Assembly (NCBI RefSeq): GCF_902813185.1
Contig: NZ_LR778301.1
Location: 1,302,001-1,366,000 of the forward strand
Length of the DNA: 64,000 nucleotides
Reading direction: 5' to 3'
From: Denitratisoma oestradiolicum
Lineage (GTDB): Bacteria > Pseudomonadota > Gammaproteobacteria > Burkholderiales > Rhodocyclaceae
Under the pieces are notes generated by a model that made no database searches, was not told where the DNA came from, and saw only the letters and a program-made list of their open reading frames with translations. Of this stretch, positions 16,375 through 34,189 are shown in pieces. The position numbers and the translations under genes were made by a program. Positions within the stretch are counted from its first letter, which is position 1, and every line of letters starts with the position of its first letter.

Positions 16375-17145
16375 TCAGAACCTGGAGGGCACTGCGCTCA
16401 ACAGCCGATCATTTCGAAACTCGGGTTCGACGTAGCAGGCCTTGCTGTGGGATAGCGATAGATCCAGCAGGCTTTCGCAGGCTTGAACTCCGACCAGGGC
16501 GGGATTCACGACCGGGACATTCAGCTTTTGGGACAGGTATTGATGGGATTGATACATGGTCGTGGAACCCAAGACGATCACGTCGGCACCATCCTCATCG
16601 ATGGCCTGACGGGCGGCTTTTTCCAGGGTCGCGAAAACGACTTCTTCCTTTCCGGTGAGCAGCGCCTCCAGGTTGGGATGGGTATTGATGTGGCGTACCG
16701 AGGCCAGCCGTGCGTCGAGCTGATACTGTTTCAAGTTCTTGTAATAGAAGGGCACCCAGCGTTGCCACAGGGTGATGATCGAAAACCGATCCCCCAGGTT
16801 GCAGGCCAGGAGAAAGGAGCTCAGTCCGGCTCCCACAACGGGGATGCTCAGCCGGGAGCGCACTGCCTCAAGACCGGTATCGGTCATGGTGCTGATGCAA
16901 ACAGCATCAACGCCATCGTCTTCTGCTTGCTGCGCCTGTTCCAGGACAAACACCGTGGCCAGGGCACTGTCGTAATGGCTGTCCAGGAAATGGCCGCCTT
17001 CACGGGCAAAAGCAAACTCCAGGATGGTGCCCGGGCGTCGAGAATCTTCAGGAATTTGCCCGCAAAACAGCGGGTGCGCCTGGTGGGGGACGGGGACCGG
17101 TGTGATAACCCGGATCCTGCGCGGCCTCTTGCTTGAATGCGTCAT
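16375..17145 (-). CDS. Asp/Glu/hydantoin-racemase-fold protein lacking both catalytic cysteines
   Basis: A 256-residue member of the Asp/Glu/hydantoin racemase superfamily, shown by DAVCISTMTDTGLEAVRSRL followed by IPVVGAG, and DVIVLGSTTMYQSHQ. Racemases of this fold use two cysteines, one in an ACxxDPGL-like motif and one in a VLGCT-like motif. Here the aligned positions are Thr86 and Ser194. Cys83 is three residues away and is the only near substitute. Classical two-base racemisation is therefore unlikely; an altered lyase or isomerase, or a binding role, is possible. GGAGGAAG precedes the ATG. It heads the IorAB-cupin-acyl-CoA dehydrogenase operon and has a paralogue with intact cysteines at 27227. 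Confidence 0.8.
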   Translation of the reverse strand: MTHSSKRPRRIRVITPVPVPHQAHPLFCGQIPEDSRRPGTILEFAFAREGGHFLDSHYDSALATVFVLEQAQQAEDDGVDAVCISTMTDTGLEAVRSRLSIPVVGAGLSSFLLACNLGDRFSIITLWQRWVPFYYKNLKQYQLDARLASVRHINTHPNLEALLTGKEEVVFATLEKAARQAIDEDGADVIVLGSTTMYQSHQYLSQKLNVPVVNPALVGVQACESLLDLSLSHSKACYVEPEFRNDRLLSAVPSRF

Positions 17146-17423: not shown

Positions 17424-18434
17424 TCAGAACGACCCTATGGACGAAACCACCCGCGCCATTTCCAGCAACTTGTTGGCGTAGCCCCATTCGTTGTCATACC
17501 AGCAGACCACCTTGACGAAGGTATTGTCCAGAGCAATGCCGGCTTCGGCGTCGAAGACGGAGGTGCAGGAATCGCCGCGAAAGTCGGTGGCCACCACCTT
17601 GTCCTCCGTATAGCCCAGCACACCTTTCATGTCCCCCTCTGCGGCGGTCTTCATGGCCCGGCAGATTTCCTCATAACCGGCAGACTGGTGCAGCTCCACC
17701 GTCAGGTCCATTACCGACACATCGGCAGTGGGCACACGAAAGGACAGGCCGGTGAGCTTACCCTTCAACGCAGGCAGCACGGCGCCAAGGGCACTGGCCG
17801 AACTGGTCGAGCAGGGAATGATATTTTCGAGCATGGCTCGTCCACTGCGCCAGATCTGGGGCGACGGCCCGTCAACCACCTTTTGTGCGATGGTGGCTGG
17901 ATGGATGGTGGTCATCAGGCCACGCTTGATGCCCCAGTTGTCGTTCAGCACCTTGGCCACGGGGGCCAGGCAATTGGTGGTGCAGGAGGCATTGGAGATG
18001 ATGTCCTGGCCGGCATAGGTCTGGTCGTTCACGCCGAAGACGAACATGGGGGTGTCATCATCGGCAGGGGCGGACATGATCGCCTTTTTGGCGCCAGCGG
18101 TGAGGTGTCGAGCGGCTGCGCCCCGGGTCAGAAAACGACCAGTGGATTCGATCACGAGATCGGCACCGATCTCGTTCCACTTCAGCTCGGCGGGGTCCTT
18201 GAGGGCGGTGAGGCGGATCTTCCTGCCATTGACGATCAGGGTGTTGCCCTCGACGGCGACACTGCCCTTGAAGCGGCCATGGACGGAGTCGTACTTGAGC
18301 AGGTAGGCCAGGTGGCCGGGCTCCAGCAGGTCGTTGATGCCGACGATTTCGATGTCAGCGAAGTTCTGAACCGCCGCCCGGAAAACCATGCGGCCGATGC
18401 GGCCAAAACCGTTGATGCCAAGCTTGAAAATCAT
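17424..18434 (-). CDS. gap: Type I glyceraldehyde-3-phosphate dehydrogenase, divergent
   Basis: A 336-residue NAD-dependent [16 protein letters not shown]ossmann loop, GINDLLEP (NAD preference), the catalytic SNASCTTNC with its Cys, the partner His in TTIHPAT, and the [14 protein letters not shown] segment. Compared with E. coli GapA, the phosphate-binding residues are altered: Thr181 is Ala (HPATIAQK instead of HATTATQK) and Gly209 is Ser ([10 protein letters not shown] instead of SSTGAAKAVG). It may be a second, specialised GAPDH or have changed substrate use. It stands alone; 17146-17423 upstream of the racemase-like gene shows nothing recognisable. Confidence 0.9.
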
Positions 18435-18625: not shown

Positions 18626-21037
18626 TCAGTAGTTGTAGATCACATCGATGCCGTAGGTACGCGGTTCACCCCAGGGGCTGCCGTGGTCGGTGGAATAGTT
18701 CACCACATCGTAGATTGTGTACTTCTTGTCGGTCAGGTTCTTGCCCCACAAGGCCACGCTCAGGTCGCCATTGCCGGCGGGCGGCACCTTGATCCGGGAT
18801 AGAGCCAAGCGGCCGTTCCAGACGCTATACGGCGGAACGATGAAGGAACTGGCAGGCCATGCCCCTGTCAGGTCAATCGGCGTGGACTGGGCACCCCGGT
18901 AGGAATAGCTGAGATTGCCATCCAGCTTGCCGGGCAGGCCAAGCGCCGGGAAGCGGTAATCAACACTGGCAGAGTAGGCCTTTTTCGGCACTACCAGCTT
19001 GCGTGTGGCCGCCACGTCCAGCCCGGTTACCAGATCCGTGAAGCGGGTGTACTTGTGGTCCATCCAGGCCGAGTTCAGGCTGAGGCGCAGGGCATCGGTC
19101 AAGGCCGCCGTCAGGTCCAGCTCCACCCCGTTATAAACGGAGCGGCCCACGTTCTGGATGATCCAGTCCGTGCCACCGGTAGCCGGGTTGGGCGTGGCCA
19201 CCGACTTCTGCTCGTTTTCGTACTTGCTCTGGAACAGCGCCAGGTTGGTCCGCAGGCGGCGGTTCAGGAACTCCCCCTTCATGCCGAACTCGGTGGAGGT
19301 GATGGTTTCCGGATCGTAGCCTTTGGTGAAACTTGCCGCAGAGCCGCTCGCCAGGTCGAAGCCGCCACTGGTGTAGCCCTTGGCCACCTTGCCATAAAAC
19401 ATTACGTCGTCGGTCCAGTGGTAGTTCAGGGACAGTTGTGGCGTGGTTTTGGAGAAGGTGTTCTTGCCATAGGCGCCGGCATAGCCGGCCGGCCAGGAGA
19501 ACACACCATTGACGACGCCCGGCGTGGCGGTCGGAGTCACGACGAAGCCCGAGAAAGACTGATTGAAGCCCGTCGCTTCCCGGGTATCCCGGGTATAGCG
19601 GATGCCGGGAACGATCTCCAGCTTGCGGGACAGCACATCGGGACGCCAGGAAATCTGGCCGAAGAGCGCCACAGAGGAGTTCTTTGCGGAGGAGATCCCG
19701 CGCTTTTCCATCATGGCGAGATCAGAGCCCAAAGGGCCACCAGCGCTGGAACCGAGGCTAGGCATATACATCACCAGATTGGGACCGCTATTCTGATGAC
19801 CCTTGTCCTCGGCATAGTAGATGCCCGTCGTGTACTTGAAGTTGGGGCCTGCATCACCGATCAACTGGAATTCCTGGGACCAGGATTCATTGAACAGAGT
19901 GATGGGTGAACTCTGGCCATTGAACGGCGTGGAGCCCAGGGGCAGGATGGTGAAGGCGCCGGAATCGGAGCGGATGTCGGCTACCCCGCGATAGGCCGTA
20001 TAGATGTAGCCGTTGGACGTATCCACCTTGCGGTAGCCGGTGATGGATCGGAAAGTCAGAGAAGGATTGATTTCCCATTCCACGTTCAGGGTATGCCCTT
20101 CCGCCTTGTTGCGGTTCTTGGGCATCGCGTAAGGGTAGTAAAGGGAAGTCAGCTTTTCGTGGGTACAGCCGGCGATGGCGGCGGCCACCCGGGGGTCGGC
20201 CGCAAAGAAGGACATGAAGCCGCCATACATCATGATGTTGGGCGGTTCAAGGCACTGGGCCGGCGTTTCATAGGATTCCGTGGTATTGGTGTCGAAACCG
20301 TAGTCGACGGTGACATTGTTGGCCGGCTTCCAGCGCAGGTCCAGACGCCAGGCATCGGCGGTCTTCTCGCCGAACTTTATGCCACCGGGGGCGGAGTTCC
20401 TGATGCCCTCGTTATCCCGGTCGCTGTGCAGATAGGAGACCTTCGCCGCCAGGGTGCCGGTCAGGGGCACATTCACCATGGTCTTGGAGAGAAACTGACC
20501 CCGCTCCGCCACAGTGATCTGCTGCTTGAAACTGAACTGCCCCAGTTCCGGCTTGACCGTATAGAGATTGAGAGCGCCGCCGGTCGCGTTGCGGCCGGAC
20601 ATCACGCCCTGGGGTCCCTTCAGGATTTCCATGCGTTCCAGGTCGGCAGCCGCCAGATTCATGCCCGCTGTCTGGGAAAGGTAGATGCCGTTGATGTGCA
20701 CCGCCATGGGCATGGAGGCCGCCACCGATACCATGTTGGGCACCACGCCCCGGATGGAGGGATACAGCACTTCGCTGCTGCCGGGATAGGGCTGGATACT
20801 CAGGCCCGGCACATAGGCGCCAACGTCCGACAAGGTGACGATGCTTTTCTGCTCCAGGGCCTTGGCATTGAAGGCCTGTACCGAGATCGGTACTTCCTGG
20901 AGGTTCTCCGCCCGTTTCTGGGCGGTGACGATGACTTCCTCAAGCTGACCTTCGGCGGCATGAATTGTCGGTGCCACGGCCATACCCGTCATTAGAAGGC
21001 CGGATACGGCCATGTGGATTCGATTCTTCTTGAACAC
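18626..21037 (-). CDS. TonB-dependent outer-membrane receptor
   Basis: An 803-residue receptor. A signal peptide ends near residue 27 (APTIHAAEG), then comes a TonB-box-like stretch (LEEVIVTAQKRAENLQ), a plug domain (VPISVQAFNAKAL to about residue 170, including MEILKGPQGVMSGRNATGG), and a large beta-barrel ending in an aromatic residue (IDVIYNY). The plug type is the one common in receptors for aromatic, steroid and other non-siderophore ligands, but the ligand cannot be read from sequence. It lies between gap and the Pad-like molybdoenzyme operon, all on the minus strand, and has its own terminator. Confidence 0.92.
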   Translation of the reverse strand: MFKKNRIHMAVSGLLMTGMAVAPTIHAAEGQLEEVIVTAQKRAENLQEVPISVQAFNAKALEQKSIVTLSDVGAYVPGLSIQPYPGSSEVLYPSIRGVVPNMVSVAASMPMAVHINGIYLSQTAGMNLAAADLERMEILKGPQGVMSGRNATGGALNLYTVKPELGQFSFKQQITVAERGQFLSKTMVNVPLTGTLAAKVSYLHSDRDNEGIRNSAPGGIKFGEKTADAWRLDLRWKPANNVTVDYGFDTNTTESYETPAQCLEPPNIMMYGGFMSFFAADPRVAAAIAGCTHEKLTSLYYPYAMPKNRNKAEGHTLNVEWEINPSLTFRSITGYRKVDTSNGYIYTAYRGVADIRSDSGAFTILPLGSTPFNGQSSPITLFNESWSQEFQLIGDAGPNFKYTTGIYYAEDKGHQNSGPNLVMYMPSLGSSAGGPLGSDLAMMEKRGISSAKNSSVALFGQISWRPDVLSRKLEIVPGIRYTRDTREATGFNQSFSGFVVTPTATPGVVNGVFSWPAGYAGAYGKNTFSKTTPQLSLNYHWTDDVMFYGKVAKGYTSGGFDLASGSAASFTKGYDPETITSTEFGMKGEFLNRRLRTNLALFQSKYENEQKSVATPNPATGGTDWIIQNVGRSVYNGVELDLTAALTDALRLSLNSAWMDHKYTRFTDLVTGLDVAATRKLVVPKKAYSASVDYRFPALGLPGKLDGNLSYSYRGAQSTPIDLTGAWPASSFIVPPYSVWNGRLALSRIKVPPAGNGDLSVALWGKNLTDKKYTIYDVVNYSTDHGSPWGEPRTYGIDVIYNY

Positions 21038-21309: not shown

Positions 21310-23895
21310 CTAGGCTGGATAAATCTTCACCCGGGCGGCGCATTCCGCCTGGAGGGTGGAGGGCCCCATGTATTTCAGGCCCCGGCCCAGCAGGCTGTTG
21401 AAGTTGCCCGGCCCGCGCCCCTTGGCCACCGCGGCGTCGGTGATGTGGCCCCAGCAACCGATGGTTCCCAGTACCTCGGGGTGAATGGTCTCGGTGTATT
21501 TCAGGAGGCCTTCGATACGCCCGTGGGGCGATTCGACGCAGACTCGCTGGCCGTCATCCAGGTTCTTTTTCCGCGCCGTGGAGGAATTGATCAGGATGCG
21601 GGCGAAATAGGGGTCCCGCTCCGCTGCCTCCAGCAACCAGGCATTGGTGGCTGGAACGGTGCCCGCGCCCACGCCGCCGATGGCGGTGCGCCAGTTGATG
21701 GCGTACAGATCGAATTCGGGGAGCTCGTTCTCGATCACGCTGGGATGCCAGAAGGGCAGGGGCGCGTATTCAAAGAACACCCGCTCCGGATCGAGGCCCG
21801 GTACCTTGGCGAAGACATCATGGGCTTCCATGTTGCGCCGCAGATCGTCGCCCACCTGCTTGAGCCAGTTGGAGTACAGGGGAATGCGATGGCCGCCGAA
21901 GCAGTCCGGCACATAACGCTTGAATGCCGGCTTGGACTTCAGGTTGTGGCCCTGTTTCCAGACTAGGGCCTCATCCTGGGGGGCCACTGCCCGCACATAG
22001 GTCTCCACGTATTCCTTCGCGCTGCGATAGCTGTGGGTGATGTCGTTGACGGTCGCCTGGCTCACCGCCTCGGTGGCGCCGCCGGTCATCTGCATCATGT
22101 TGAGGAAGGAGCTGAAGCCCAGGGGACCGGTCATGGTGCCCAGCCGGTTGGCCAGCTCGATGTAGATGTCGGCGCTATGGGGAATGCCATAGAGGGGCTG
22201 CACCACCGGCTGCTGGATCTGGATGCCCTCATCCTCCACGGACCACATGCCTTCCCAGGCCCAGCGTTCCAGGTAGGTGACATCCGGCAGCACCAGGTCG
22301 GCGAAGAGCGCCGTCTCGTCCACATAGAGAGTGATATCCACCATGTAGGGAATGGCCTTCAGGCCCTCGATGGTGGACTGGGTGTTCATGCCGGTGAGCA
22401 CCGGATTGCCGCCTTCGTTGATCAGCATCTCGATGGGCGTGTTGCCGTACTGCTCGGGATGGGCCTGGGTCTCGTAGCACAGGAGGCCCGCATCGAAGGC
22501 CACCGGGAAGTATTCCGGGATGCTCGACATCTTGGGTGGGAAGCTGAAGGCATGGGGCTGGAACGGCGTGAAGATCAGTCCGTCCGGTCCCGGCAGGGTG
22601 GTGGCAGGGGAGGTGGGCATCATGGTGCCGATCCAGGCCCGGGCGCCGCCCACGGCCCGGGTCGAGCCGATCAGGACATTGATCAGTTCCATTGCCCAGG
22701 AGGTGTGCAGGGCGTTGGTGTGGGTGCTCAGGCCCCGATAGCCGGACACGGAAGCCGGGCGATAGGGGTAGGTTTTGCCGTCGATCTCGATGGTCTCGCC
22801 GATGTGCGCGGCCTGGCCCAGCTCGTTGGCCAGGCGGCGGATGGTCTCGGCCGACACGCTGGTAATGGGTTCAGCCCATTCCGGGGTGTATTGGCGCAGG
22901 TGATCGTGCAGCAACTGGAAGCCCGGCTGGCCTTCCCCCACGGTGGTCTGGAATCGGCCCAGCAGGGCCAACTGGTCGGGATCGATGGCCGGATCGTCAT
23001 ACTCCCGGGCCTGATTGGTCGCCAGGTCCCACACCAGGGGTTTGCCGCTCTGGGCATGGCGCAGGGGATAGCCGTCGGCGCCGATCAAATACCCGGCATT
23101 GGTGTGCACCCGCAGGTAATGGGCGTCGTAGATGTTCGCCTCGTGGAGCAGGACGTGCATCATGGCCAGCAGCATGGCGCCGTCCGTGGCCGGACGGATC
23201 GGCACCCATTCTTCGGCCATGGCGGCGGCCCGGCTCTGTTGGGGATCTACCACCACCAGCTTGAACTTCTCCCGACCCTTGGCGTCACCCAGGATGCGCC
23301 CGTAGGCCACGGCGCTCTGATAGCACTCCCCCAGGGCGGCGCCGACGATCATGGTGAATTCGGCATACTCCAGGTCGGGGTGGGTGTTCATGGAGTTGTG
23401 GATCATCTCCCCCGCCGTGTGGGCGCCGTTGCCGCACATGTGACCCATGGCGCTGAACAGGTTCTTGCAGGTATTGCTGGTGCCGAAGGACAGACCGAAG
23501 GCATTTCCCCAATGCCAGGAATGGGTGTTGAAGCCTCCCATCGCCAGAAGATTGGGATCCTTATCGCGGACCGCCCGCAATTTCGCTTCCAGGATGTTCA
23601 GGGCCTTGTCCCAGGATATTTCCTCCCAGCCGGGATCGATGTCCAGGCCCTTTTCCGGGTTGGTGCGACGCATCGGCACCTTCAGCCGCTTGGGGTCATA
23701 GAGCCGCATGGCCCCGGCGTTTCCTTTGGGGCACAGGCGGCCCCGGGTGGCGGGGGCGGTGGGGTTGCCTTCGATCTTGACCAGCACGCCGTCCTTGACG
23801 TGGGCCAGGATTGGGCAGCCGTGGTAGCACATGCTGCAGTGGGAGGGCACCCACTGATCGGCAGGTGTGGAAGAGGTGGCGGCGGCGTGGGACAT
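21310..23895 (-). CDS. DMSO-reductase-family molybdopterin subunit, PadB-like
   Basis: An 861-residue Mo/W-bis-MGD enzyme. The N-terminal [4Fe-4S] motif is HCSMCYHGCPI...GRLCPKG (four Cys), and a likely metal-ligand region is GHMCGNGAHTAG. Molybdopterin-binding segments include KLVVVDPQQSRAAAMAEEWVPIRPATDGA and LPDVTYLERWAWEG. There is no Tat or Sec signal, so the active site is probably cytoplasmic. With the FeS (about 25 kDa), membrane (about 32 kDa) and this subunit (about 94 kDa), the set resembles phenylacetyl-CoA:acceptor oxidoreductase PadBCD, whose CoA-ester substrate is cytoplasmic. Thiosulfate/polysulfide reductase or acetylene-hydratase-like roles remain possible. Confidence 0.85.
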   Translation of the reverse strand: MSHAAATSSTPADQWVPSHCSMCYHGCPILAHVKDGVLVKIEGNPTAPATRGRLCPKGNAGAMRLYDPKRLKVPMRRTNPEKGLDIDPGWEEISWDKALNILEAKLRAVRDKDPNLLAMGGFNTHSWHWGNAFGLSFGTSNTCKNLFSAMGHMCGNGAHTAGEMIHNSMNTHPDLEYAEFTMIVGAALGECYQSAVAYGRILGDAKGREKFKLVVVDPQQSRAAAMAEEWVPIRPATDGAMLLAMMHVLLHEANIYDAHYLRVHTNAGYLIGADGYPLRHAQSGKPLVWDLATNQAREYDDPAIDPDQLALLGRFQTTVGEGQPGFQLLHDHLRQYTPEWAEPITSVSAETIRRLANELGQAAHIGETIEIDGKTYPYRPASVSGYRGLSTHTNALHTSWAMELINVLIGSTRAVGGARAWIGTMMPTSPATTLPGPDGLIFTPFQPHAFSFPPKMSSIPEYFPVAFDAGLLCYETQAHPEQYGNTPIEMLINEGGNPVLTGMNTQSTIEGLKAIPYMVDITLYVDETALFADLVLPDVTYLERWAWEGMWSVEDEGIQIQQPVVQPLYGIPHSADIYIELANRLGTMTGPLGFSSFLNMMQMTGGATEAVSQATVNDITHSYRSAKEYVETYVRAVAPQDEALVWKQGHNLKSKPAFKRYVPDCFGGHRIPLYSNWLKQVGDDLRRNMEAHDVFAKVPGLDPERVFFEYAPLPFWHPSVIENELPEFDLYAINWRTAIGGVGAGTVPATNAWLLEAAERDPYFARILINSSTARKKNLDDGQRVCVESPHGRIEGLLKYTETIHPEVLGTIGCWGHITDAAVAKGRGPGNFNSLLGRGLKYMGPSTLQAECAARVKIYPA

Positions 23896-23919: not shown

Positions 23920-24252
23920 TTAGCCGCTGGCGATGGCCTTCACCAGGATCAGCAGCACTCTGATCCGGCCTGAGGCGTCCACATGGGACTCGAGAGCCTC
24001 ATCCGCATCGTTGATGGCCTTGTCATTGACGAAAAGGTGCACATTCTTCAAGCGGCAGCCCGCGTCCCGGGCTGGACCCAAGGCCGGCACCAGGGGAGGG
24101 CCGAAACGATCCAGCAGAGCCTTGAAAATTCCCCTGCCGGTGAGAACGCCAGGTGCCAACTCCAGGTCGAGGGTCGGCCGGCTGCTGCCGCCCAGACACA
24201 GGTCCGGGAAGCCGTGCAGCATGACATTGGCGGTGATCCGTGGTTCGTCCAT
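23920..24252 (-). CDS. MoaD/ThiS-like beta-grasp protein without C-terminal GlyGly
   Basis: A 110-residue protein. The strand pattern PTLDLELAPGVLTGRGIFKALL, then VHLFVNDKAIND and the C-terminal IRVLLILVKAIASG fits the MoaD/ThiS ubiquitin-like fold. A true sulfur carrier ends in GlyGly, which is adenylated and thiocarboxylated; this one ends Ala-Ser-Gly, so it may not carry sulfur. It sits between the membrane subunit gene (7 bases away) and the catalytic subunit gene (24 bases away), so it is probably specific to this molybdoenzyme, as a cofactor-insertion factor, a subunit or a decayed carrier. The family call rests on pattern reading only. Confidence 0.65.
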   Translation of the reverse strand: MDEPRITANVMLHGFPDLCLGGSSRPTLDLELAPGVLTGRGIFKALLDRFGPPLVPALGPARDAGCRLKNVHLFVNDKAINDADEALESHVDASGRIRVLLILVKAIASG

Positions 24253-24259
24253 GGAGAGG

Positions 24260-25165
24260 TCAGGTCCTGGCGCGACCCTGGGCCATCAGGGCCGAGAGGG
24301 AGAAGCTCTTGCGGTAAAAATAGGCGGCGCGAGTGACCAAGGTGAGTTTCAGGGACCAGCCGGTCACGGCGGCGATCAGGCCCGCGGTGGCCGCCAGGCC
24401 GGTAGTGGCGGTGCCTCCCAGCAGCAGGCCGGTGACCAGCAGGGCCGCCGGCAGTCCATGGCCGGAAACCTCGAAGTTGCCGCTGAAATGGCCCAGCACC
24501 GCGAAGGTCTCACGGGGGATTTCGTCAACGCTCAACCCCTTCTGGTAGCGATGCCAGGCCAAGTAGCGTAAGGCTAGGGTCGCCAGCAGCAGGCCGGCCA
24601 GCGGGGACGAGACACTGCCCGGCACGAAAGCGGAGCACAAACTTGCCAGACCGATGCCTTCCGCCAGCCCGGTGCTGAGGATCAAGGGCACGATCCGGGG
24701 ATCGGACCAGGCGGGAATACCCTTGGACTCGCCCAGGATGCGGGCCTGGCAATAGAGGAAGAACAGGGCGGACAGGGTGGCCGCCACAGCCATGGCCCCC
24801 ACCTCGGACTGGAACAGGGACAGGGCGCCGCAACCGAAGAGGGTGGGCATGGCAAAGCCCTCCCGGGTCATCCAGGAGGTCTGCACGTGGCGGAAGATGT
24901 TGAAGGCCCGAGTGGGCCGGCCCATCTTGGCCATGATGCACAACAGCCCCAGGGCGACGATCACTAGTCCCAGGGCCGCCTGGACCCGGTAGGCCTGGAT
25001 CGAGGGGGCCAGCCAGGTGGCCGACAGCAGGAGGCCGGCGCCGGTGCCGCCACCGATGAAGTTGCCGACGGCGCGCCAGTCCCATTTGGTTTGCAGATGG
25101 GCGGTGCTGGACCATTGGGTCGCCGTGCCTTGCAGAAGCTCTGGTTGCGATGTCGTAGGGTGCAT
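24260..25165 (-). CDS. DmsC/NrfD-type membrane subunit, PadD-like
   Basis: A 301-residue polytopic inner-membrane protein with about eight hydrophobic segments (for example TGAGLLLSATWLAP, AALGLVIVALGLLCIMAK, VAATLSALFFLYCQARIL, AALLVTGLLLGG). The segments DWRAVGNFIGGGTGAGL and MAKMGRPTRAFNIFRH are typical of the DmsC-like anchors. It should connect the FeS subunit to the quinone pool. The frame opens with a TTG at 25189, but the ATG at 25165 has GGAG eight bases upstream and is the better start. It follows the FeS gene by 45 bases with this start. Confidence 0.85.
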   Translation of the reverse strand: MHPTTSQPELLQGTATQWSSTAHLQTKWDWRAVGNFIGGGTGAGLLLSATWLAPSIQAYRVQAALGLVIVALGLLCIMAKMGRPTRAFNIFRHVQTSWMTREGFAMPTLFGCGALSLFQSEVGAMAVAATLSALFFLYCQARILGESKGIPAWSDPRIVPLILSTGLAEGIGLASLCSAFVPGSVSSPLAGLLLATLALRYLAWHRYQKGLSVDEIPRETFAVLGHFSGNFEVSGHGLPAALLVTGLLLGGTATTGLAATAGLIAAVTGWSLKLTLVTRAAYFYRKSFSLSALMAQGRART

Positions 25166-25210
25166 TTTGAGGCTCCGATGCGGTATCAAGGTCAGAGGAG
25201 CAGAACAAGC

Positions 25211-25885
25211 TCAATCGTTCGCGAGGGGGGTATCCCCCGGGAGATAAAAGATGGACGGCTTGGTCCCTGCTCCGGGCAGCAGGGGGAAGCCCTTGCGCGC
25301 CTCGATCAGCCGGCTGATCTTGCTGTTGGGATCGTCCAGGTCACCGAACTCCATGGCATTGGAGGGGCAGGTATTGACGCAGGCCGGGGTGACCTCCCGG
25401 TCCACACCCGGGGTCAGGCCAGTGTCCTTGGCCTTGTCCAGACGATGCTGGCAGAAGGTGCATTTGACTACCGTGTCCCGCTTGGAGTCCCAATCATGGC
25501 CCGCCTCTCCGCCCTTCAGCTCGTGGGGGGTGAGACCGTCCTCGAAGTGTTCCAGCTTGTCGCCGACGAAATGGCGCTGCTCGTAGGGGCAGGAGGTCAT
25601 GCAATAGCCGCAGCCGATGCAGACATCCGCATCCACCAGTACCAGGCCGTCGTCCCGCTTGTAGGTGGCCTTGGTGGGGCATACCGGCACGCAGGGCGGC
25701 TCGGCGCAGTGGTTGCACTGGACCGGGGCGTGGATGCGCTTCGCCTTCGGATACTCACCCACCTCCTCGAACATCATGCGCCGGAAGTGAACTCCCGAGG
25801 GTGTGCTGTGCTCCTGCTTGCAGGCCATCACGCAGCCATAACAGCCGGTGCAGCGCTGTAGATCTATGGTCATGCCCCATCGCAT
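25211..25885 (-). CDS. Four-cluster ferredoxin-like subunit (DmsB/PadC-like)
   Basis: A 224-residue protein with the four [4Fe-4S] sites of the DmsB/PhsB family: CTGCYGCVMAC, CNHCAEPPCVPVC, CIGCGYCMTSC and CTFCQHR...CVNTC. It moves electrons between the molybdenum subunit and the membrane subunit. No signal peptide is present, in line with a cytoplasm-facing complex. AGGAG lies nine bases before the ATG at 25885. It is the first gene of the four-gene operon; the 235 bases upstream hold no gene and should carry the promoter, opposite the end of a LysR gene. Confidence 0.9.
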   Translation of the reverse strand: MRWGMTIDLQRCTGCYGCVMACKQEHSTPSGVHFRRMMFEEVGEYPKAKRIHAPVQCNHCAEPPCVPVCPTKATYKRDDGLVLVDADVCIGCGYCMTSCPYEQRHFVGDKLEHFEDGLTPHELKGGEAGHDWDSKRDTVVKCTFCQHRLDKAKDTGLTPGVDREVTPACVNTCPSNAMEFGDLDDPNSKISRLIEARKGFPLLPGAGTKPSIFYLPGDTPLAND

Positions 25886-26120: not shown

Positions 26121-27065
26121 CTAATCCGGGGATGAGTTCCGATATCCGGTAAAAATCGAACACAGGGTGTTTCGCAGCCACAGATTTGCCGGATCTTCTT
26201 CCTTGGATTCGTGCCAGTAGAGGCGGATATTCATCTCCCTCGGTGTATTGAGGTCGGTGGGCAGGGCCACTAGACGGTTGCCCGGGAAACTTTCCTGCAT
26301 CAGGGCGAGGGTCGAACGGGTTGCGGTCAGAAGAAAATCCGTGGCCGCCACGGTTTTACAGGCGGTCCAGTAATCCTGGCAGCGCAAGACGATTTCGCGC
26401 TTCAACCCCAGGCGTTGGAACTCCAGGTCCACCAGGTTGGCATCCTGTTCGAAGGGTGCCACGACGACGTGGTATTGGCCCAGGTAAGCATCAAGGTCCA
26501 TGGTTCCTTTGCTCAGAGGATGCCCTTGCCGGACCATGATGCCCAGTTTTTCACAGTTCAGCAGGGTGCTGCGGATACGGCTGGAATGGGGGAACTCGAA
26601 CTGGATGGCTACATCGAACTTTCCCGCTGCCAGATGGGATTCAAGCTTGCCCAGGCTGTAGTGGGACACAGCGATCTCGTAGGGTGGGGTATTGCCCATG
26701 CTCGCAGTCAGTTGCGGCAGAAAGCCAGGTCCATAGGTTGCCAGCAGCATGCCGATATTCAGTCGGGGGCGGACTTTTTCCGGTTTGGCGGGATGGGCCT
26801 GATTGATGGATTGTTCCAGCAGACGCAGGGCGGACTGGACCGGTCCGATCAGGCGTCTCGCCATTGCGGTTGGGGTAATGATGTTTCCATTGCGTTCAAA
26901 GAGCGGATCGTCACACAGCTCTCGCAGCCTCGACAAGGCATGGCTGATGGCGGACTGGGTCAGGTGCAGCCGTTCACTGGCACGGGTAACTGATCCTTCT
27001 TCGTAGATCGCTTCGAAGGCAACCAGCAGGTTCAGGTCCACGCGACGGATATCGATGTTTTTCAT
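26121..27065 (-). CDS. LysR-type regulator (NodD/NahR-like group)
   Basis: A 314-residue LysR regulator whose N-terminus DLNLLVAFEAIYEEGSVTRA, followed by LTQSAISHALSRLR, is typical of the NodD/NahR/PcpR branch that responds to aromatic or related effectors. The ATG at 27065 has GAGG close before it; another in-frame ATG at 27074 is possible. It is divergent from the racemase gene at 27227 with about 160 bases between, and lies upstream of the molybdoenzyme operon on the same strand. It may control either or both. Confidence 0.88.
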   Translation of the reverse strand: MKNIDIRRVDLNLLVAFEAIYEEGSVTRASERLHLTQSAISHALSRLRELCDDPLFERNGNIITPTAMARRLIGPVQSALRLLEQSINQAHPAKPEKVRPRLNIGMLLATYGPGFLPQLTASMGNTPPYEIAVSHYSLGKLESHLAAGKFDVAIQFEFPHSSRIRSTLLNCEKLGIMVRQGHPLSKGTMDLDAYLGQYHVVVAPFEQDANLVDLEFQRLGLKREIVLRCQDYWTACKTVAATDFLLTATRSTLALMQESFPGNRLVALPTDLNTPREMNIRLYWHESKEEDPANLWLRNTLCSIFTGYRNSSPD

Positions 27066-27226
27066 GGGCCTCATGAAGCATTTTCACTAGGGGGGCTTGG
27101 GGTTTGGCCCTTACATTGTGCCGCAGTTCAGGTGGTCGAGAATAATCGGGCCATGCAGGAAATTCATCGGGGAAGGGACGCCCGGTCGTCCCTGGCCGGG
27201 GGAGCGGAAACAAGAGGAACAGTGAT

Positions 27227-28042
27227 TTGAATATCAAAGTCCATGTACAGTTTATTTCCCCCGAGGGGAAAAACGACAAGATGTTCGGGCCTGCCAAGGC
27301 TGCCGTGCACAACGGTGTCCTCCAGGTTGTGCGGGATGCTGCAGGTGCCAAAGCCACTGTGGTGGCCGGCTACAACGATCGCTCTGCCTATCACATGAGC
27401 CGGGGCTTCATGGAAGCCTACAACAACGTCGGAATGATGGAATCCTTGTTCCAGGCCCAGGAGCAGGGTGCGGACGTGGTCTTGATCGCCTGTGGTAACG
27501 ATCCGACGCTGTACAGCGCAAGAGAGGCCCTGGATATCCCGGTGGTGGGAATTACCGAGAGCGGGATGTTATTGGCCTGCATCCTGGGCAAACGTTTCGC
27601 GATGGTCGGAATCGAGGAGGGTTGCGCATCCCTGGTGGAGCGGAATCTCGAAACCTATGGTCTGGTGGATCGAGCTATTCGGCGGGATCCGGTGAGAACA
27701 GCCGACCTGGCGGAGAACACCATTCTCTGGTTCGAGCAGCCGGAACTGGTGCGGGAACATGTGATTCCTCGTTTTGAGGAAGCGGCCTTCGGCGCCATCG
27801 AGGATGGGGCCGAAGTGATCGTGACCTCCTGCGGTGCTCTCGCCGCCCTGACCTTGAACGGCTACAGCAAGGTGACCGGCACCGATGTCCCTGTGGTGGA
27901 GTCGGTACTGGCGGGTAGTTATATGGCGGGCATGTTGGGCATCCTGCGCAAGCGGCACAGCCTGTCCACCAGCAAACACCGCACCTTCAAGGGGCTGCCA
28001 CCGGAGGTGATTGCTCATTTTCTTGCGCCTTTTCGAGAATAG
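27227..28042 (+). CDS. Asp/Glu/hydantoin-racemase-family protein, both cysteines present
   Basis: A 271-residue member of the superfamily. Both catalytic cysteines are visible: Cys89 in LIACGNDPTL and Cys202 in VTSCGALAAL. The segment IPVVGITESGM is the usual substrate-phosphate/carboxylate loop region. Possible reactions are amino-acid, hydantoin or maleate-type isomerisation. The start is a TTG at 27227 with AGAGGAA about eight bases before it; no upstream ATG is in frame. It faces away from the LysR gene and precedes a TonB receptor gene by 156 bases. A paralogue without the cysteines is at 16375. Confidence 0.85.
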   Translation: MNIKVHVQFISPEGKNDKMFGPAKAAVHNGVLQVVRDAAGAKATVVAGYNDRSAYHMSRGFMEAYNNVGMMESLFQAQEQGADVVLIACGNDPTLYSAREALDIPVVGITESGMLLACILGKRFAMVGIEEGCASLVERNLETYGLVDRAIRRDPVRTADLAENTILWFEQPELVREHVIPRFEEAAFGAIEDGAEVIVTSCGALAALTLNGYSKVTGTDVPVVESVLAGSYMAGMLGILRKRHSLSTSKHRTFKGLPPEVIAHFLAPFRE

Positions 28043-28198: not shown

Positions 28199-30661
28199 AT
28201 GCGTTATCAAAAGAACAGAACATATGTCATACGGGCTTTGCCGCTGTTGCTGGCGGCTGTCTATGCAGGCACAGCCAGCGCCGATGGGGCCAAGCTGGAA
28301 GAGGTCATCATTACTGCCCAGAAACGGGCCGAGCGCCTGCAGGACGTGCCTATCGCCGTCTCAGCCATCAGTGGCGCCCAGTTGGAAACCCGGGGCATCG
28401 AGGGCAGCAAGGATCTCAGCTCCCTGGCGCCCACCCTGATGGTGACCTACGGCAATTCGGGCAACAGCACCATGTCCATCATTTCCATTCGAGGCAGCGC
28501 CAGCGGCGCTCCCTCGATTTTCCTGGATACGGCGGTCGGCACCTATGTGGATGGCGTCTACGCCGGCAAGAACCAGGGCGGCCTGTTTGACATCGTGGAC
28601 CTGGAACGGGTGGAAGTGCTGCGCGGTCCCCAGGGCACCCTGTTCGGTCGCAATACCCTGGCCGGTGCGATCAATTTCGTGACCCGCAAGCCCAGCGGTG
28701 TGTTTGGCGGTACCGTCGGCATTGATGTTGGCAACTATGGTCAGAGTATCCAGCGGATTGCGGTCGATCTTCCCAAGATGGGTGCCCTGCGCTTGAATCT
28801 TGCGGCCCGCAACGAAACCCGAGACGGTTATGTCGGCAATCAGAATGGTCCCGACGCCGGCAAGGTGGACAAGCAGACCTATCGCCTGGCGGCCAACCTG
28901 GATGTCACGCCGAAGCTTCAGGCCTATTACGTCTTCGATCATACCAACGTGGACAATGTCCCCCTACCGGTTTCCTCTTACTCGACCTTTGGCTGGCGGG
29001 GCCCCGTGGCCACCAATTCGAGTTCCAATATCACTTATGGCGGGCGCGCCGCCATCATCGCCGGCGCCTCCGATGAGTTCCCGAGTTCCAGAAACACCAC
29101 CCCGGGTTTCGCGGAATGGGAAAAGATGAAGACCCACAACCATGCCATGACTCTGTCCTATCGGGTGAATGACAACAACACATTCAAGTACATCTTTGCC
29201 GATCGCAAGATGCACTGGGGCGACCAACTGGACATGGATGGCCTTCCCGCCAATATTTATTCCTACAAGCGGGACACCCACCTTGAGACCCAATCCCATG
29301 AGCTGCAGTGGGTGGGCAGCGTGGATCGTCTGAGTTATGTCCTGGGCTACTACGACTACAAGGAAGACAGCCATACCTACAACCCGATGATGATCAACGT
29401 GGCCAGCGGCACCATTTTCCAGGCGCCGGACTTTTACGGCAGCGTGGATGCGAAGGCTCTCTTTGCCCAGTTGGACTATGCTTTCAACGACAAGTGGTCC
29501 GGCAGCGTCGGCATCCGCCGCTCCATCGACGAGAAGGGGGTGGATTCGAGCGTTTATGGCACAGGGACTTCCTTCAGCGGATCGATGACGGCAGCAGGTT
29601 TGCCGGCGTTCATTTTCGCCCCGGGCCCGATACCGGTAACCACCAATGCAGGGGACATTCTCCAGGTGCTATCGCCGACGATGGCCCTGGATCTGTCCAA
29701 GCAACCCACCGGTGCCACTACTGTCGCTTCCCCAGCGGTTTTCCATGCGGCAGCCAAGCATTCCTTCGCCGCCACCACGCCGGCCCTGAGTCTGAGCTAC
29801 AAGGTGGATGAGGGGCTGAATGTCTACGGCCGCATCGCCAAGGGTTTTCGTTCCGGCGGCTTCCCCGCCGAAGCCGGAGGCAGTTCTGTGGCCCAGGTAA
29901 CGTCCGCCAGGACGACAGCCTTCCTGCCGGAAAAGTCCACCACGATGGAACTGGGTTTCAAGGCCAATTTCTGGGATGGCAAAGCCCAGGTGAATGGCGC
30001 CATCTACCAGAACAAGGTGGATAACATGCAAACCAACCGTTTGGTTCCCGGCACCACCAGTTCCATTGTCGTGAATGCCGGCAAGGGTACCTACCAGGGT
30101 CTCGAACTGGAAGGCCAGTTGGTGGTGGTTGATGGCTGGCGCGTCGGTGCCAGTTGGGGCTATGTGGACGCCAAGTACGACAAATACCTGGATGACCAGG
30201 TGTGCTTCACCGCTGCGGGCGGATACGGCCCTTGCAATCCCGCTGTCCAAGTGGACCGTGCCAGCAACACCAAGGTTGCCTATGCGCCCAAACACACCCT
30301 GAATTTCAATGTGGATGGGCGCCTGGCCAAGACCGCATGGGGCATCCTGCGTGGCACGATGGATATCAACTACGTTGCACAAATGTACAACGTTCCCTCA
30401 AATATCAATCTGGACGCACCGAACGCCGGGGGCTCTTACTGGGTGGGAACGACGACGATTCCGTCCCGGACCTTGATCAACGGACGCCTGATACTGGCTG
30501 GTGTGCCGGTGGGCGGGCCGGGTCGGGCAGATGTCTCCCTGTGGGTACGGAACCTGGCCGACGTCCGGAAGGTGGTCAATAACATCGACTTGGGCTACTA
30601 CCGTGTTGCCACTTGGACCGAACCCCGCACCTACGGCCTGTCCTTTGGCTATAAGTGGTAA
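28199..30661 (+). CDS. TonB-dependent outer-membrane receptor
   Basis: An 820-residue receptor: signal peptide ending near residue 29 (GTASADG), TonB-box-like LEEVIITAQKRAERLQ, plug domain with DLERVEVLRGPQGTLFGRN and TLAGAINFVTRKPSG, and a barrel ending in a C-terminal tryptophan (LSFGYKW). The N-terminal stretch is nearly the same as in the receptor at 18626, so both belong to the same receptor group, although the barrels differ. AAGGAGGG precedes the ATG. It is co-oriented with the racemase gene. Its ligand is unknown; the neighbouring molybdoenzymes point to a catabolic substrate rather than iron. Confidence 0.92.
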   Translation: MRYQKNRTYVIRALPLLLAAVYAGTASADGAKLEEVIITAQKRAERLQDVPIAVSAISGAQLETRGIEGSKDLSSLAPTLMVTYGNSGNSTMSIISIRGSASGAPSIFLDTAVGTYVDGVYAGKNQGGLFDIVDLERVEVLRGPQGTLFGRNTLAGAINFVTRKPSGVFGGTVGIDVGNYGQSIQRIAVDLPKMGALRLNLAARNETRDGYVGNQNGPDAGKVDKQTYRLAANLDVTPKLQAYYVFDHTNVDNVPLPVSSYSTFGWRGPVATNSSSNITYGGRAAIIAGASDEFPSSRNTTPGFAEWEKMKTHNHAMTLSYRVNDNNTFKYIFADRKMHWGDQLDMDGLPANIYSYKRDTHLETQSHELQWVGSVDRLSYVLGYYDYKEDSHTYNPMMINVASGTIFQAPDFYGSVDAKALFAQLDYAFNDKWSGSVGIRRSIDEKGVDSSVYGTGTSFSGSMTAAGLPAFIFAPGPIPVTTNAGDILQVLSPTMALDLSKQPTGATTVASPAVFHAAAKHSFAATTPALSLSYKVDEGLNVYGRIAKGFRSGGFPAEAGGSSVAQVTSARTTAFLPEKSTTMELGFKANFWDGKAQVNGAIYQNKVDNMQTNRLVPGTTSSIVVNAGKGTYQGLELEGQLVVVDGWRVGASWGYVDAKYDKYLDDQVCFTAAGGYGPCNPAVQVDRASNTKVAYAPKHTLNFNVDGRLAKTAWGILRGTMDINYVAQMYNVPSNINLDAPNAGGSYWVGTTTIPSRTLINGRLILAGVPVGGPGRADVSLWVRNLADVRKVVNNIDLGYYRVATWTEPRTYGLSFGYKW

Positions 30662-30749: not shown

Positions 30750-31784
30750 TCAGGGCGCCCGGTGGTTGTCGAAACGATCTGACTGACCGCCTAGTACCAT
30801 GTCCCGGATCATCGGGGCCTGCAATATGGCATGAGGAAAGCCCAGGTCCGGTGCAGTGGCCTGCTCCAGTCGTTGCCACTGGTCCGGACTCAGGGTCACC
30901 GCCAGGCAGCCCAGGTTGTCCTGGAGCTGGGGCAAGGTACGGGCGCCGATGATAGGAGTTATGGTGCCGAACCGGTCTTGCTGGCGGATGAAGGCCAGGG
31001 CTGCCTGACCTGGTGTACAGCCGAGTTCCCTTGCAATCTCCACAACCAGCGCCGTTACCGTGCGCTGCCGATCCGTCATGGGTTGGTGCTGGCCCCGACC
31101 CTCGCCCTTGCCATCGAGGAACTTGCCGGTGAGCATGCCGCCGGCCAGGGGCGACCAGGCTGTGATGCCCAGGTCCAGGGCGTGGGCCATGGGGAGCAGA
31201 TCACGCTCCGCAGTGCGCTCCAGGAGGCTGTATTCCACTTGGATGCCAATGAAGGGCGCCCAGCCCCGCAGGTCCGCCAGCATGTTGCCGCGGCTGATCT
31301 GCCAGGCCGGTGTGTCGGAGATGGCGATGTAGTTCACCTTGCCGGCGGACACCAGATCGTCCAGGCCTCGCATGATCTCCTCGATGGGCGTGGTGTCGTC
31401 CCAGACGTGGAGCCAATAGAGGTCGATGCAATCGACCTTCAGCCGGCGCAGGCTCTGCTCCACACAGCGCATCATGTTCTTGCGACTGGTGCCGGATTTG
31501 GACAAGTCCCCTTCCAGGGAGGACGAGTACTTGGTGGCCAGGACGAAATGATCCCGGTCGGCCCGGACGAAGTCCCCCACCAGTTCCTCGCTACGGCCAT
31601 TGCCATAGACGAAAGCGGTGTCGATGAAGTTGCCTCCGGCGTTGGTGAAGGCGTCGAATATCTTCCGGCTTTCTGCGCTATCGCTGCCGAATTGCCAGAA
31701 ACCATCGTCGCGGCCGAAGGTCATGGCTCCCAGACATAGTTCGGAGACCCTGAGACCGGAGCGGCCAAAAAGCTTGTAGCGCAT
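30750..31784 (-). CDS. Aldo/keto reductase
   Basis: A 344-residue NADPH-dependent aldo/keto reductase with the TIM-barrel catalytic tetrad visible: Asp and Tyr in FIDTAFVYGNGRSEE, Lys in ATKYS, and His in LYWLHVWD. The C-terminal TPIIGARTLPQLQDNLG segment binds the cofactor phosphate. It resembles the general AKR group used on aldehydes and ketones of varied origin. It lies 158 bases downstream of the third molybdoenzyme gene on the same strand and may share its transcript, so it could reduce or oxidise a carbonyl intermediate of the same route. Confidence 0.88.
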   Translation of the reverse strand: MRYKLFGRSGLRVSELCLGAMTFGRDDGFWQFGSDSAESRKIFDAFTNAGGNFIDTAFVYGNGRSEELVGDFVRADRDHFVLATKYSSSLEGDLSKSGTSRKNMMRCVEQSLRRLKVDCIDLYWLHVWDDTTPIEEIMRGLDDLVSAGKVNYIAISDTPAWQISRGNMLADLRGWAPFIGIQVEYSLLERTAERDLLPMAHALDLGITAWSPLAGGMLTGKFLDGKGEGRGQHQPMTDRQRTVTALVVEIARELGCTPGQAALAFIRQQDRFGTITPIIGARTLPQLQDNLGCLAVTLSPDQWQRLEQATAPDLGFPHAILQAPMIRDMVLGGQSDRFDNHRAP

Positions 31785-31942: not shown

Positions 31943-34189
31943 TCAGTCGTTGACTGGTGTGATCCGGCAGATATGGGCACGCAGGTGATTGTCGCCGGCA
32001 AAGCTGGCAAAGTTATGATCGTCGGGAATGATGGAATTGATGTTCGACTCCCAGACCCCGGACAGATTGGGCTCGTAGGCCTCCTGCTCCGGATACCACC
32101 ACAGGCCATCCGCATGGACCACGTCGGGGTGCAGGGTGTCGTTGAGCTTGGCCCACTGCTTCACCTTGCCCATGGGGGTCTCCACCCAGACCGCGTCCCC
32201 GTCGCCGATGCCCAGGCTGGCGGCCGTTTCCGGATGGATCGAGGCGAAGGCCTTGGGATGCTGCCGGCGCATCTTGTCCAGTTGCTTGTGCTGGGACCGG
32301 TAGTAGAAGGGCGACGAGGCGCCGGCCGTCATCACCAGGGGGAATTCCTTGAACAGCTCCGGGGTGCGGACCGGACTCCAGCCCGGTTCCTCGCAGGGGA
32401 GAATGCCCGGGTAACCCAGCTTCTGCATCAGGCTGGAGGAGAGCTCCACCTTGCCGGAGAAGGTGGCGAAGCCGGTCTTCTCGTAGCGCTTCTCCTGGGG
32501 CGGTTCGGGGAACAGCCAGGGCATGTCCCGGCTGGCCAGTTCGGCAAAGGTGATCTTCGATGGCTCCAGCAGCTTGTCGAACCAGCCTTCCAGGGTATCG
32601 GGCCACTCACCCTGCTGGCCCAGCCGGTTGCCCAACTCCCGCCACAATTGGTAATCGTCCCGACGCTCGAACTGCGGCTTCACCGTGGGCATGGCGGCCG
32701 AAGTGACATTGCCGAAGCCCCACATGCCGCCCAGGTTGGCCCGCTCCAGGCCATCGGTGGCCGGTAGCACGTAGTCCGCCAACTGGGCCTGGGGCGTCAT
32801 CCAGTGATCCATCGCCACGTGCAAATCCAGGTTGGGACTGGTCAGGGCCTGATAGACCCGGCGCGAGTTGGCTAGGGCCACCATGGAGTTGGTGCCCTGG
32901 GTGATCACGGCCTTGATGGGGTAGGGGTCCTGGTCGATGATGGCGGACCAGATGGCCGACGGCGCCGTGCACATCATGTAGAAGGCCGGACCAGGGCCCA
33001 GGGGGTTCAGCTTGGCCATGGCCTCGCGGAAGGTCTTCATGCCGCGCACGCCGGCCACCGGCCAGAGATGGGCGCCCACGTTGTCCCGGGTGCGCAGGGG
33101 ATGATTGAGCAGGGTGTCCCACTTCAATTCCTGCCGGTACTGCATGAACTCAGGCATGTCGTCCAGCAACTGGCCGCCGATCAGGTCCAGGTTGCCGGTG
33201 ATGGCCCGCAGGTAGGCCTTGCCGAAAACGGTGGCGTTGGTGGCGTTGCCCAGCTCCACGGTGCCCAGGCCGAAGGAGATGTTGCCCGGCTTGTTGTTGG
33301 CGTAGTAACGGGCCACTTCGACGATCTGCTCGACGGGAATCCAGGTCAGTTCCGAGACCCGCTGCGGAGTGTAGTCCTTGACCGCTTCCTTCAGTTCATC
33401 GAAACCCAGGCACCACTTCTCGACGAATTCCTTGTCGTAGATGCCTTCGTGGATGATGACATTGAGGAAGCCATAGGCCAGGGCGCCGTCGGCGCCGGGC
33501 CGGATGCGCAGCCAGATGTCCGCCAGCTCTGCGGCCTCGGAGCGGCGTGGATCGATCACGATGATCTTGGTGCCCGCCTTGCGCGCCGCCTTGATGGCCT
33601 TCTCCGCCGCGATGCCCCCCGGTACCGGCGGATTGCCGCCCCAGAAGATGGCGGTCTTGGTGACGCCGGGTGTTGGCCAGTAGCCCACCACGCCGATGGT
33701 GCCATAGACGGACCACTCGGCCAGGTACTCGGCGGAACCGCAGTTCTTGCCCTGGTGCATCATGTTGGGGGTGCCGAACAGATTGCCCCAGCGCCAGCAG
33801 GCGGCGTCGCCCGGACCCTTGAAGGAGCCCCCCAGGGTCTGCACCGCTTCCGGCCCGTGGTCGTCGCGGATCTGCCCGAGCTTGGCGGCGATCTCGTCCA
33901 GGGCCTGCTCCCAGCTGATCTGCTGCCACTTGCCTTCGCCCCGCTTGCCTACCCGCTTCATGGGGTAGTTCAGACGATCCGGGTGGTTGTGATAGGTCTT
34001 GGCCTGGCCGGCCCGGGGGCAATCCGCCGGGTGGGGGGAGTTGTGGTCAGCCTTGATTCGAACCGGGATGCCATCCTGAATCTTGACCTCAACGAAACAG
34101 CCCATGCCGCAGATGGGGCAGGTTCCCTTCTGGGTCTCTTGGCTGTGATGAACCTCGCTTTCAAGGACCTTGGGGGCTCCAAACAGCAT
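31943..34189 (-). CDS. DMSO-reductase-family molybdoenzyme, acetylene-hydratase/formate-dehydrogenase-like
   Basis: A 748-residue Mo/W-bis-MGD protein without a signal peptide. The N-terminal cluster motif is CPICGMGCF...CPRAG (four Cys). Mid-protein segments such as DKEFVEKWCLGFDELKEAV are close to what I recall of acetylene hydratase, but the residue after the second Cys is Gly where that enzyme has its catalytic Asp, so acetylene hydration is not supported. GKNCGSAEY is a likely metal-ligand region. No partner subunits are encoded beside it; an aldo/keto reductase gene is downstream. A soluble cytoplasmic oxidoreductase or hydratase is plausible. Confidence 0.85.
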   Translation of the reverse strand: MLFGAPKVLESEVHHSQETQKGTCPICGMGCFVEVKIQDGIPVRIKADHNSPHPADCPRAGQAKTYHNHPDRLNYPMKRVGKRGEGKWQQISWEQALDEIAAKLGQIRDDHGPEAVQTLGGSFKGPGDAACWRWGNLFGTPNMMHQGKNCGSAEYLAEWSVYGTIGVVGYWPTPGVTKTAIFWGGNPPVPGGIAAEKAIKAARKAGTKIIVIDPRRSEAAELADIWLRIRPGADGALAYGFLNVIIHEGIYDKEFVEKWCLGFDELKEAVKDYTPQRVSELTWIPVEQIVEVARYYANNKPGNISFGLGTVELGNATNATVFGKAYLRAITGNLDLIGGQLLDDMPEFMQYRQELKWDTLLNHPLRTRDNVGAHLWPVAGVRGMKTFREAMAKLNPLGPGPAFYMMCTAPSAIWSAIIDQDPYPIKAVITQGTNSMVALANSRRVYQALTSPNLDLHVAMDHWMTPQAQLADYVLPATDGLERANLGGMWGFGNVTSAAMPTVKPQFERRDDYQLWRELGNRLGQQGEWPDTLEGWFDKLLEPSKITFAELASRDMPWLFPEPPQEKRYEKTGFATFSGKVELSSSLMQKLGYPGILPCEEPGWSPVRTPELFKEFPLVMTAGASSPFYYRSQHKQLDKMRRQHPKAFASIHPETAASLGIGDGDAVWVETPMGKVKQWAKLNDTLHPDVVHADGLWWYPEQEAYEPNLSGVWESNINSIIPDDHNFASFAGDNHLRAHICRITPVND

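Follow-up and report, generated by a model that had tools for sequence, protein, structure and literature searches.

In a 64,000-nucleotide stretch of the Denitratisoma oestradiolicum genome (contig NZ_LR778301.1, positions 1,302,001 to 1,366,000; hereafter referred to as the window), the operon of a Pad-like molybdenum enzyme contains a 110-residue MoaD-like open reading frame (ORF) at 23920-24252 on the minus strand. On balance, and with some reserve, we interpret its product as a MoaD-type maturation factor that is encoded in the operon of the Pad-like enzyme, is dedicated to that enzyme and is charged by an E1-like enzyme of the housekeeping set. Such a dedicated helper is more likely than a new non-carrier subunit. 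The computed support comprises a β-grasp fold prediction, a distant kinship with MoaD, the gene order, purifying selection and an invariant terminal glycine.

The ORF has an ATG start and closes with the codons AGC (Ser109) and GGC (Gly110) and a TAA stop (23920..23928, minus strand), giving the C-terminal residues KAIASG. A preliminary description of this DNA, which left the strand unnamed, had placed a 110-residue protein ending in Ala-Ser-Gly between the anchor and catalytic genes, and both its coordinates and its ending are confirmed. The gap to the anchor ORF (24260-25189) is 7 bases and that to the catalytic ORF (21310-23895) is 24 bases, and a 4Fe-4S protein gene (25211-25885) lies upstream, with all four genes on the minus strand. 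Pad-like enzymes are defined by a molybdenum catalytic subunit, an iron–sulfur (FeS) subunit and a membrane anchor encoded in one operon, and all three are found here, although the anchor is recognized through no more than a weak match. The 861-residue catalytic subunit is a molybdopterin oxidoreductase of the DMSO reductase superfamily (Pfam PF00384, PF04879 and PF01568), in which inspection by eye revealed no Tat-type signal at the N terminus. It shares 38% identity with P0062 and P0064, both named as related to phenylacetyl-CoA:acceptor oxidoreductase; phenylacetyl-CoA is at most a possible substrate. The anchor, of the DmsC/NrfD type and up to 309 residues long, has a Pfam DmsC match just under the cut-off (E 2e-4), and the 224-residue 4Fe-4S electron-transfer subunit matches Pfam Fer4_11, its best NCBIfam matches (ArrB, DsrO and TtrB) all falling below the cut-off.

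The order FeS, anchor, MoaD-like and catalytic gene is present twice in a genome of the same genus (G838, loci L025 and L026), with identities to the window of 76-78% for the small protein, 85-89% for the catalytic subunit, 73% and 80% for the anchor, and 90% and 94% for the 4Fe-4S subunit. One of the two G838 small proteins is identical to P0007, which is named as a Denitratisoma sp. DHT3 protein. Three comparisons among the window copy and the two same-genus copies gave ratios of non-synonymous to synonymous substitution (dN/dS) of 0.23-0.32 for the small gene and 0.09-0.13 for the catalytic gene. With dN/dS in this range and 23 further family members at E ≤ 0.1, of which none scores worse than 5e-16 and two are shortened, the ORF is a real gene.

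Single-chain structure prediction assigned the 110-residue protein a β-grasp, ubiquitin-like fold, the fold that the preliminary description had expected of the protein alone. At E ≤ 1 the protein has no match among the Pfam and NCBIfam models, and a single-protein search of PDB sequences returned one row, a de novo design at E 0.6. On profile comparison, the protein is distantly akin to the MoaD-like ORFs of Pad-like loci and through them to MoaD: a joint profile of the family and these distant rows matches the MoaD structure 1vjk (E 7.5e-6), a match carried by the distant rows. The earlier assignment as MoaD-like, a guess made from the strand pattern, is borne out in fold and in distant profile kinship, but not by any direct match.

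A first search for relatives yielded 11 proteins, four ending in Gly-Gly and seven in Ser-Gly (one of the latter shortened), and a later profile search yielded 24. The full-length family alignment comprises 22 members, with the shortened P0011 and P0143 excluded; 15 end in Gly-Gly and seven in Ser-Gly, and no residue other than Gly or Ser occupies the penultimate position. The last glycine is invariant in all 22, and each sequence stops exactly there, leaving a free terminal Gly. The window protein, with its Ser-Gly end, lacks the Gly-Gly C terminus that characterizes the MoaD/ThiS superfamily. The Ser-Gly set (the window protein, P0002, P0004, P0006, P0007, P0008 and P0132, all at least 67% identical) is interspersed at the same identity range with the Gly-Gly members P0003, P0005 and P0009, and a single base step leads from the serine codons AGC/AGT to the glycine codons GGC/GGT. 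Among the 15 distant MoaD-like rows (alignment A5), ten end exactly in Gly-Gly, two in Ala-Gly (L052 and L055) and three in Gly-Gly followed by one residue, and the aligned penultimate position is Gly in 13 and Ala in 2. A 15-row tree calls for four changes at the penultimate residue, although its resolution is poor, with only 1 of 12 inner branches starred.

From these comparisons, the Ser-Gly ending is most simply read as a local variant of a mostly Gly-Gly family. The preliminary description had taken the ending as the mark of a non-carrier protein, a claim that is not supported: because 15 of the 22 members end in Gly-Gly, the Ser-Gly members are interspersed among them and one base separates the two forms, the ending cannot mark the protein as a non-carrier. 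Homologues ending in Gly-Gly, with this protein a simple variant among them, are what that description itself had named as evidence to the contrary. The extra residue of the three distant exceptions is Q, N or R (L067 4305-4604, the first copy of L069 5434-5793, and L079 5476-5997), and these ORFs would need trimming if their products are carriers. The two shortened relatives, P0011 (78 residues) and P0143 (67 residues), match the Ser-Gly member P0008 over the first 37 residues and then diverge, P0143 somewhat later; they may reflect real decay or sequencing errors.

In the mechanism that we infer, a housekeeping E1-like enzyme of the MoeB type, encoded elsewhere, would adenylate and thiocarboxylate the terminal glycine, with the preceding serine tolerated, and the protein would then pass sulfur to a cofactor building or insertion step for the Pad-like enzyme. 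Candidate acceptor steps are the dithiolene sulfur, made with the housekeeping MoaE, and a sulfur ligand of the metal. The protein probably acts transiently and not as a fixed subunit. Elsewhere the genome encodes the usual pairs, moaD next to moaE and thiS next to thiG. For a serine at the equivalent place, one study (PMC3731359) describes Gly75Ser ubiquitin as still activated by NAE and UAE, with UAE-to-E2 transfer unaffected.

Several observations weigh against this interpretation, besides the dependence of the 1vjk match on the distant rows. Both fold models were built on alignments that include the distant MoaD-like rows, and Foldseek ranks ubiquitin-family chains first (4 chains at E ≤ 0.001), so that fold by itself is no specific pointer to MoaD. 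A PDB search with the family profile alone found nothing at E ≤ 10, and the Pfam ThiS model (PF02597) matches none of the 22 family members at E ≤ 1, its 10 matches in the wider 26-row set A3 all lying among the 16 non-family rows. The profile E-values are modest, with one copy near the noise, and gene position and C-terminal ending entered into the choice of the 16 profile seeds. As regards the chemistry, the same study of Gly75Ser ubiquitin describes NAE-to-Ubc12 transfer as blocked, and both C-terminal glycines are reported (PMC4326299) to be essential in the Escherichia coli molybdopterin (MPT) synthase and in mycobacterial MoaX; the Ser-Gly form might be inactive. The genome contains four E1-like (PF00899) places, none of them in the window, and a phmmer search that took the MoaE of this genome as query (E ≤ 1e-3) found no MoaE-like ORF in the scanned loci. 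Among 80 Pad-like loci from genome contigs, which stand for fewer than 80 organisms because several come from one contig or one isolate (such as L055/L075, L049/L064 and L054/L104), a MoaD-like ORF (E < 1e-3) is present in only 16. In addition, the window's catalytic clade is separate from the other clades that carry MoaD.

These counts come from a MoaD-like model searched against all 9102 ORFs of the loci, which recovered 23 members including two duplicates (21 distinct). In 13 of the 80 loci, the ORF lies on the same strand within 150 bases; adjacency is favoured in these counts, since the choice of seeds was guided in part by location and C-terminal residues. MoaD-like ORFs further off were also recovered (L067, L056 and L031), as was a divergent one in L087, and no fusion to a catalytic ORF occurs among the model matches. 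The ORF at L064 (5445-5807) keeps both ends without the middle of the domain; it was kept in A3 and among the 16 loci, and dropped from A4, A5 and A7. Of 17 family-genome stretches, the organism's own and the same genus included, five have an adjacent MoaD-like ORF (L025, L026, L029, L030 and L032), and a sixth, L031, has one 4.5 kb away.

A catalytic-subunit tree (FastTree, midpoint root) was built from 70 of the 98 loci, 28 being left out for a score below 300 or a length below 450 residues; L031 was labelled as lacking MoaD because of the 4.5-kb distance, and L087, with its divergent ORF, was labelled as bearing it. The MoaD label is clustered on this tree, with 10 changes against a shuffled mean of 18.8, and none of 500 shuffles was as low. 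Among the 70 rows, the nearest relative of the window's catalytic subunit outside the genus, L045, has no MoaD-like ORF, which together with the isolated position of the window clade speaks against a simple single origin. Strict co-occurrence with the enzyme, which the preliminary description had proposed as support, is thus not seen, and its idea of a partner dedicated to one molybdenum enzyme is backed by the operon setting but not by a strict association. Distances of the small protein and the catalytic subunit correlate (Mantel, 22 pairs, L031 and L064 excluded), as would also arise from the shared descent of neighbours.

Genome surveys added little to this distribution. With the first family alignment, the class survey gave one match in 369 genomes at E ≤ 0.01, in the organism's own genome. 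The order survey gave 6 of 399 at E ≤ 0.1, and the five besides the own genome (E 0.03-0.08, partial) were taken as chance. Both surveys are incomplete, because G838, with its two copies, is absent from their matches. A family profile scan of genome contigs confirmed no member, and near genomes may be outside that set; two weak matches in the own genome (E 0.157 and 7.3) overlap an unrelated ORF and a catalytic gene and were rejected. We found no report of a Pad-like operon that includes a MoaD gene in the open-access PubMed Central literature, a search that does not exclude subscription papers.

An unlikely explanation, but one deserving real weight, is that the protein is a non-carrier partner, a β-grasp chaperone or small subunit that binds or opens the apo-catalytic subunit for cofactor insertion and whose C terminus performs no chemistry. 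This would suit the seven relatives, the window protein included, that lack the penultimate glycine, the toggling of that residue on the poorly resolved 15-row tree, the lack of a MoaE found nearby and of an E1-like place in the window, and the faster change of the small gene relative to the catalytic gene. However, a flexible tail would hardly be so conserved if it were chemically idle: the terminal glycine is kept throughout the family, and the penultimate residue is confined to Gly or Ser there and to Gly or Ala in the distant rows. We consider it improbable that the protein is instead a carrier being lost, in which the Gly-Gly relatives work and impaired Ser-Gly forms are tolerated because the housekeeping MoaD, whose gene is present in the genome, covers the need. 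The prevalence of Gly-Gly in the family and among its distant relatives, the reported need for both glycines in E. coli MoaD (PMC4326299) and the resemblance of the shortened P0011 and P0143, whether decayed or misread, to a Ser-Gly member are in keeping with such loss, but the three Ser-Gly copies from the window and G838 are intact and have dN/dS well below 1, and the ending is common to seven full-length members. A ubiquitin-like modifier, whose terminal glycine would be joined to lysines on the enzyme or on some other protein to form a regulatory tag like archaeal SAMP1, is very improbable, as no sign of conjugation was seen nearby (JAB deconjugating peptidases were not searched for) and the fold match is a tie.

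The dedicated maturation factor that we favour has its closest counterpart in AOR-linked MoaD genes, which have been proposed to serve the cofactor of one molybdenum or tungsten enzyme (Iyer, Burroughs and Aravind 2006, PMC1779556). In Aromatoleum aromaticum, the aorD and aorE products are described as not being in the purified enzyme (PMC6365974). Shared with those systems (PMC1779556 and PMC6365974) is a MoaD-like gene in the operon of one molybdenum or tungsten enzyme, in some organisms in addition to the cofactor operon. In contrast, the present enzyme belongs to the Pad-like group within the DMSO reductase superfamily and no AOR gene is adjacent, the neighbours being the FeS protein, the DmsC/NrfD-type anchor and the PF00384 catalytic gene; AOR clusters often include MoeB, whereas the window has no E1-like place; and the close family falls outside the Pfam ThiS model, with 7 of its 22 members ending in Ser-Gly. 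Unlike the MPT synthase MoaD known from E. coli, mycobacteria and human, the window gene does not lie beside moaE, and its product has a penultimate serine and finds no direct match to its sequence in either PDB or Pfam. SAMP1, Urm1 and CysO differ in genomic setting, and the window gives no sign of conjugation or cysteine synthesis.

FdhD supplies sulfur to certain molybdenum enzymes. It likewise adjoins Pad-like paralogues of the same genome, although it is unrelated to the 110-residue protein: at L028 (C1:1268000-1287000), tandem Pad-like operons with the order catalytic, FeS and anchor occurring twice are followed by FdhD (PF02634), and no MoaD-like neighbour was found. The G838 locus L027 has two catalytic genes and FdhD. 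FdhD-like ORFs occur in 7 of the 98 Pad-like loci (L027, L028, L033, L035, L036, L041 and L074), and none of the 98 has both FdhD and a MoaD-like ORF; with P 0.14, this is not significant, and FdhD and MoaD-like proteins as alternatives are only a lead. In three genomes of the family, ThiS-model matches at E ≤ 0.01 number nine (G803), eight (G769) and eight (G780), a few of which fall short of the cut-off or lie in long reading frames; the own genome has two that exceed the cut-off. UbiD-family ORFs (PF01977) are present in three MoaD-bearing Pad-like loci (L052 8607-10010, minus strand; L056 11548-12990; L067 1598-3061).

Upstream of the operon lies a LysR-type regulator (26121..27074, minus strand; Pfam HTH_1 and LysR_substrate). 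A second molybdopterin enzyme, acetylene-hydratase-like and 748 residues long (31943..34189, minus strand), has 2e7z as its best PDB match (E 2.5e-106). Its G838 relative (L026 3583-5814, 94% identity) directly precedes the FeS gene at 5862-6533; the 748-residue enzyme is at most a candidate member of the Pad-like system. Two different proteins of the Asp/Glu/hydantoin racemase family (PF01177) flank the cluster (16375-17145, minus strand, and 27227-28042, plus strand), and TonB-dependent receptors flank the operon (18626-21037, minus strand, and 28199-30661, plus strand). The 18626-21037 receptor, the GAPDH gene (17424-18434) and the aldo/keto reductase (30750-31784) have relatives near the G838 copy L025.

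Dedicated MoaD genes were previously known beside tungsten AORs. MoaD-like ORFs beside Pad-like enzymes of the DMSO reductase superfamily in several phyla suggest a private cofactor helper in more than one enzyme class. A bolder proposal, to which we give little weight, is that Pad-like molybdenum enzymes of several phyla use their own MoaD-type protein to pass sulfur or a half-built cofactor to the metal site, replacing FdhD, and that in the Denitratisoma lineage the Ser-Gly end works, the penultimate glycine being dispensable for this acceptor. The natural series of endings, from Gly-Gly through Ala-Gly and Ser-Gly to Gly-Gly followed by one residue, lets the requirements of the tail be probed.
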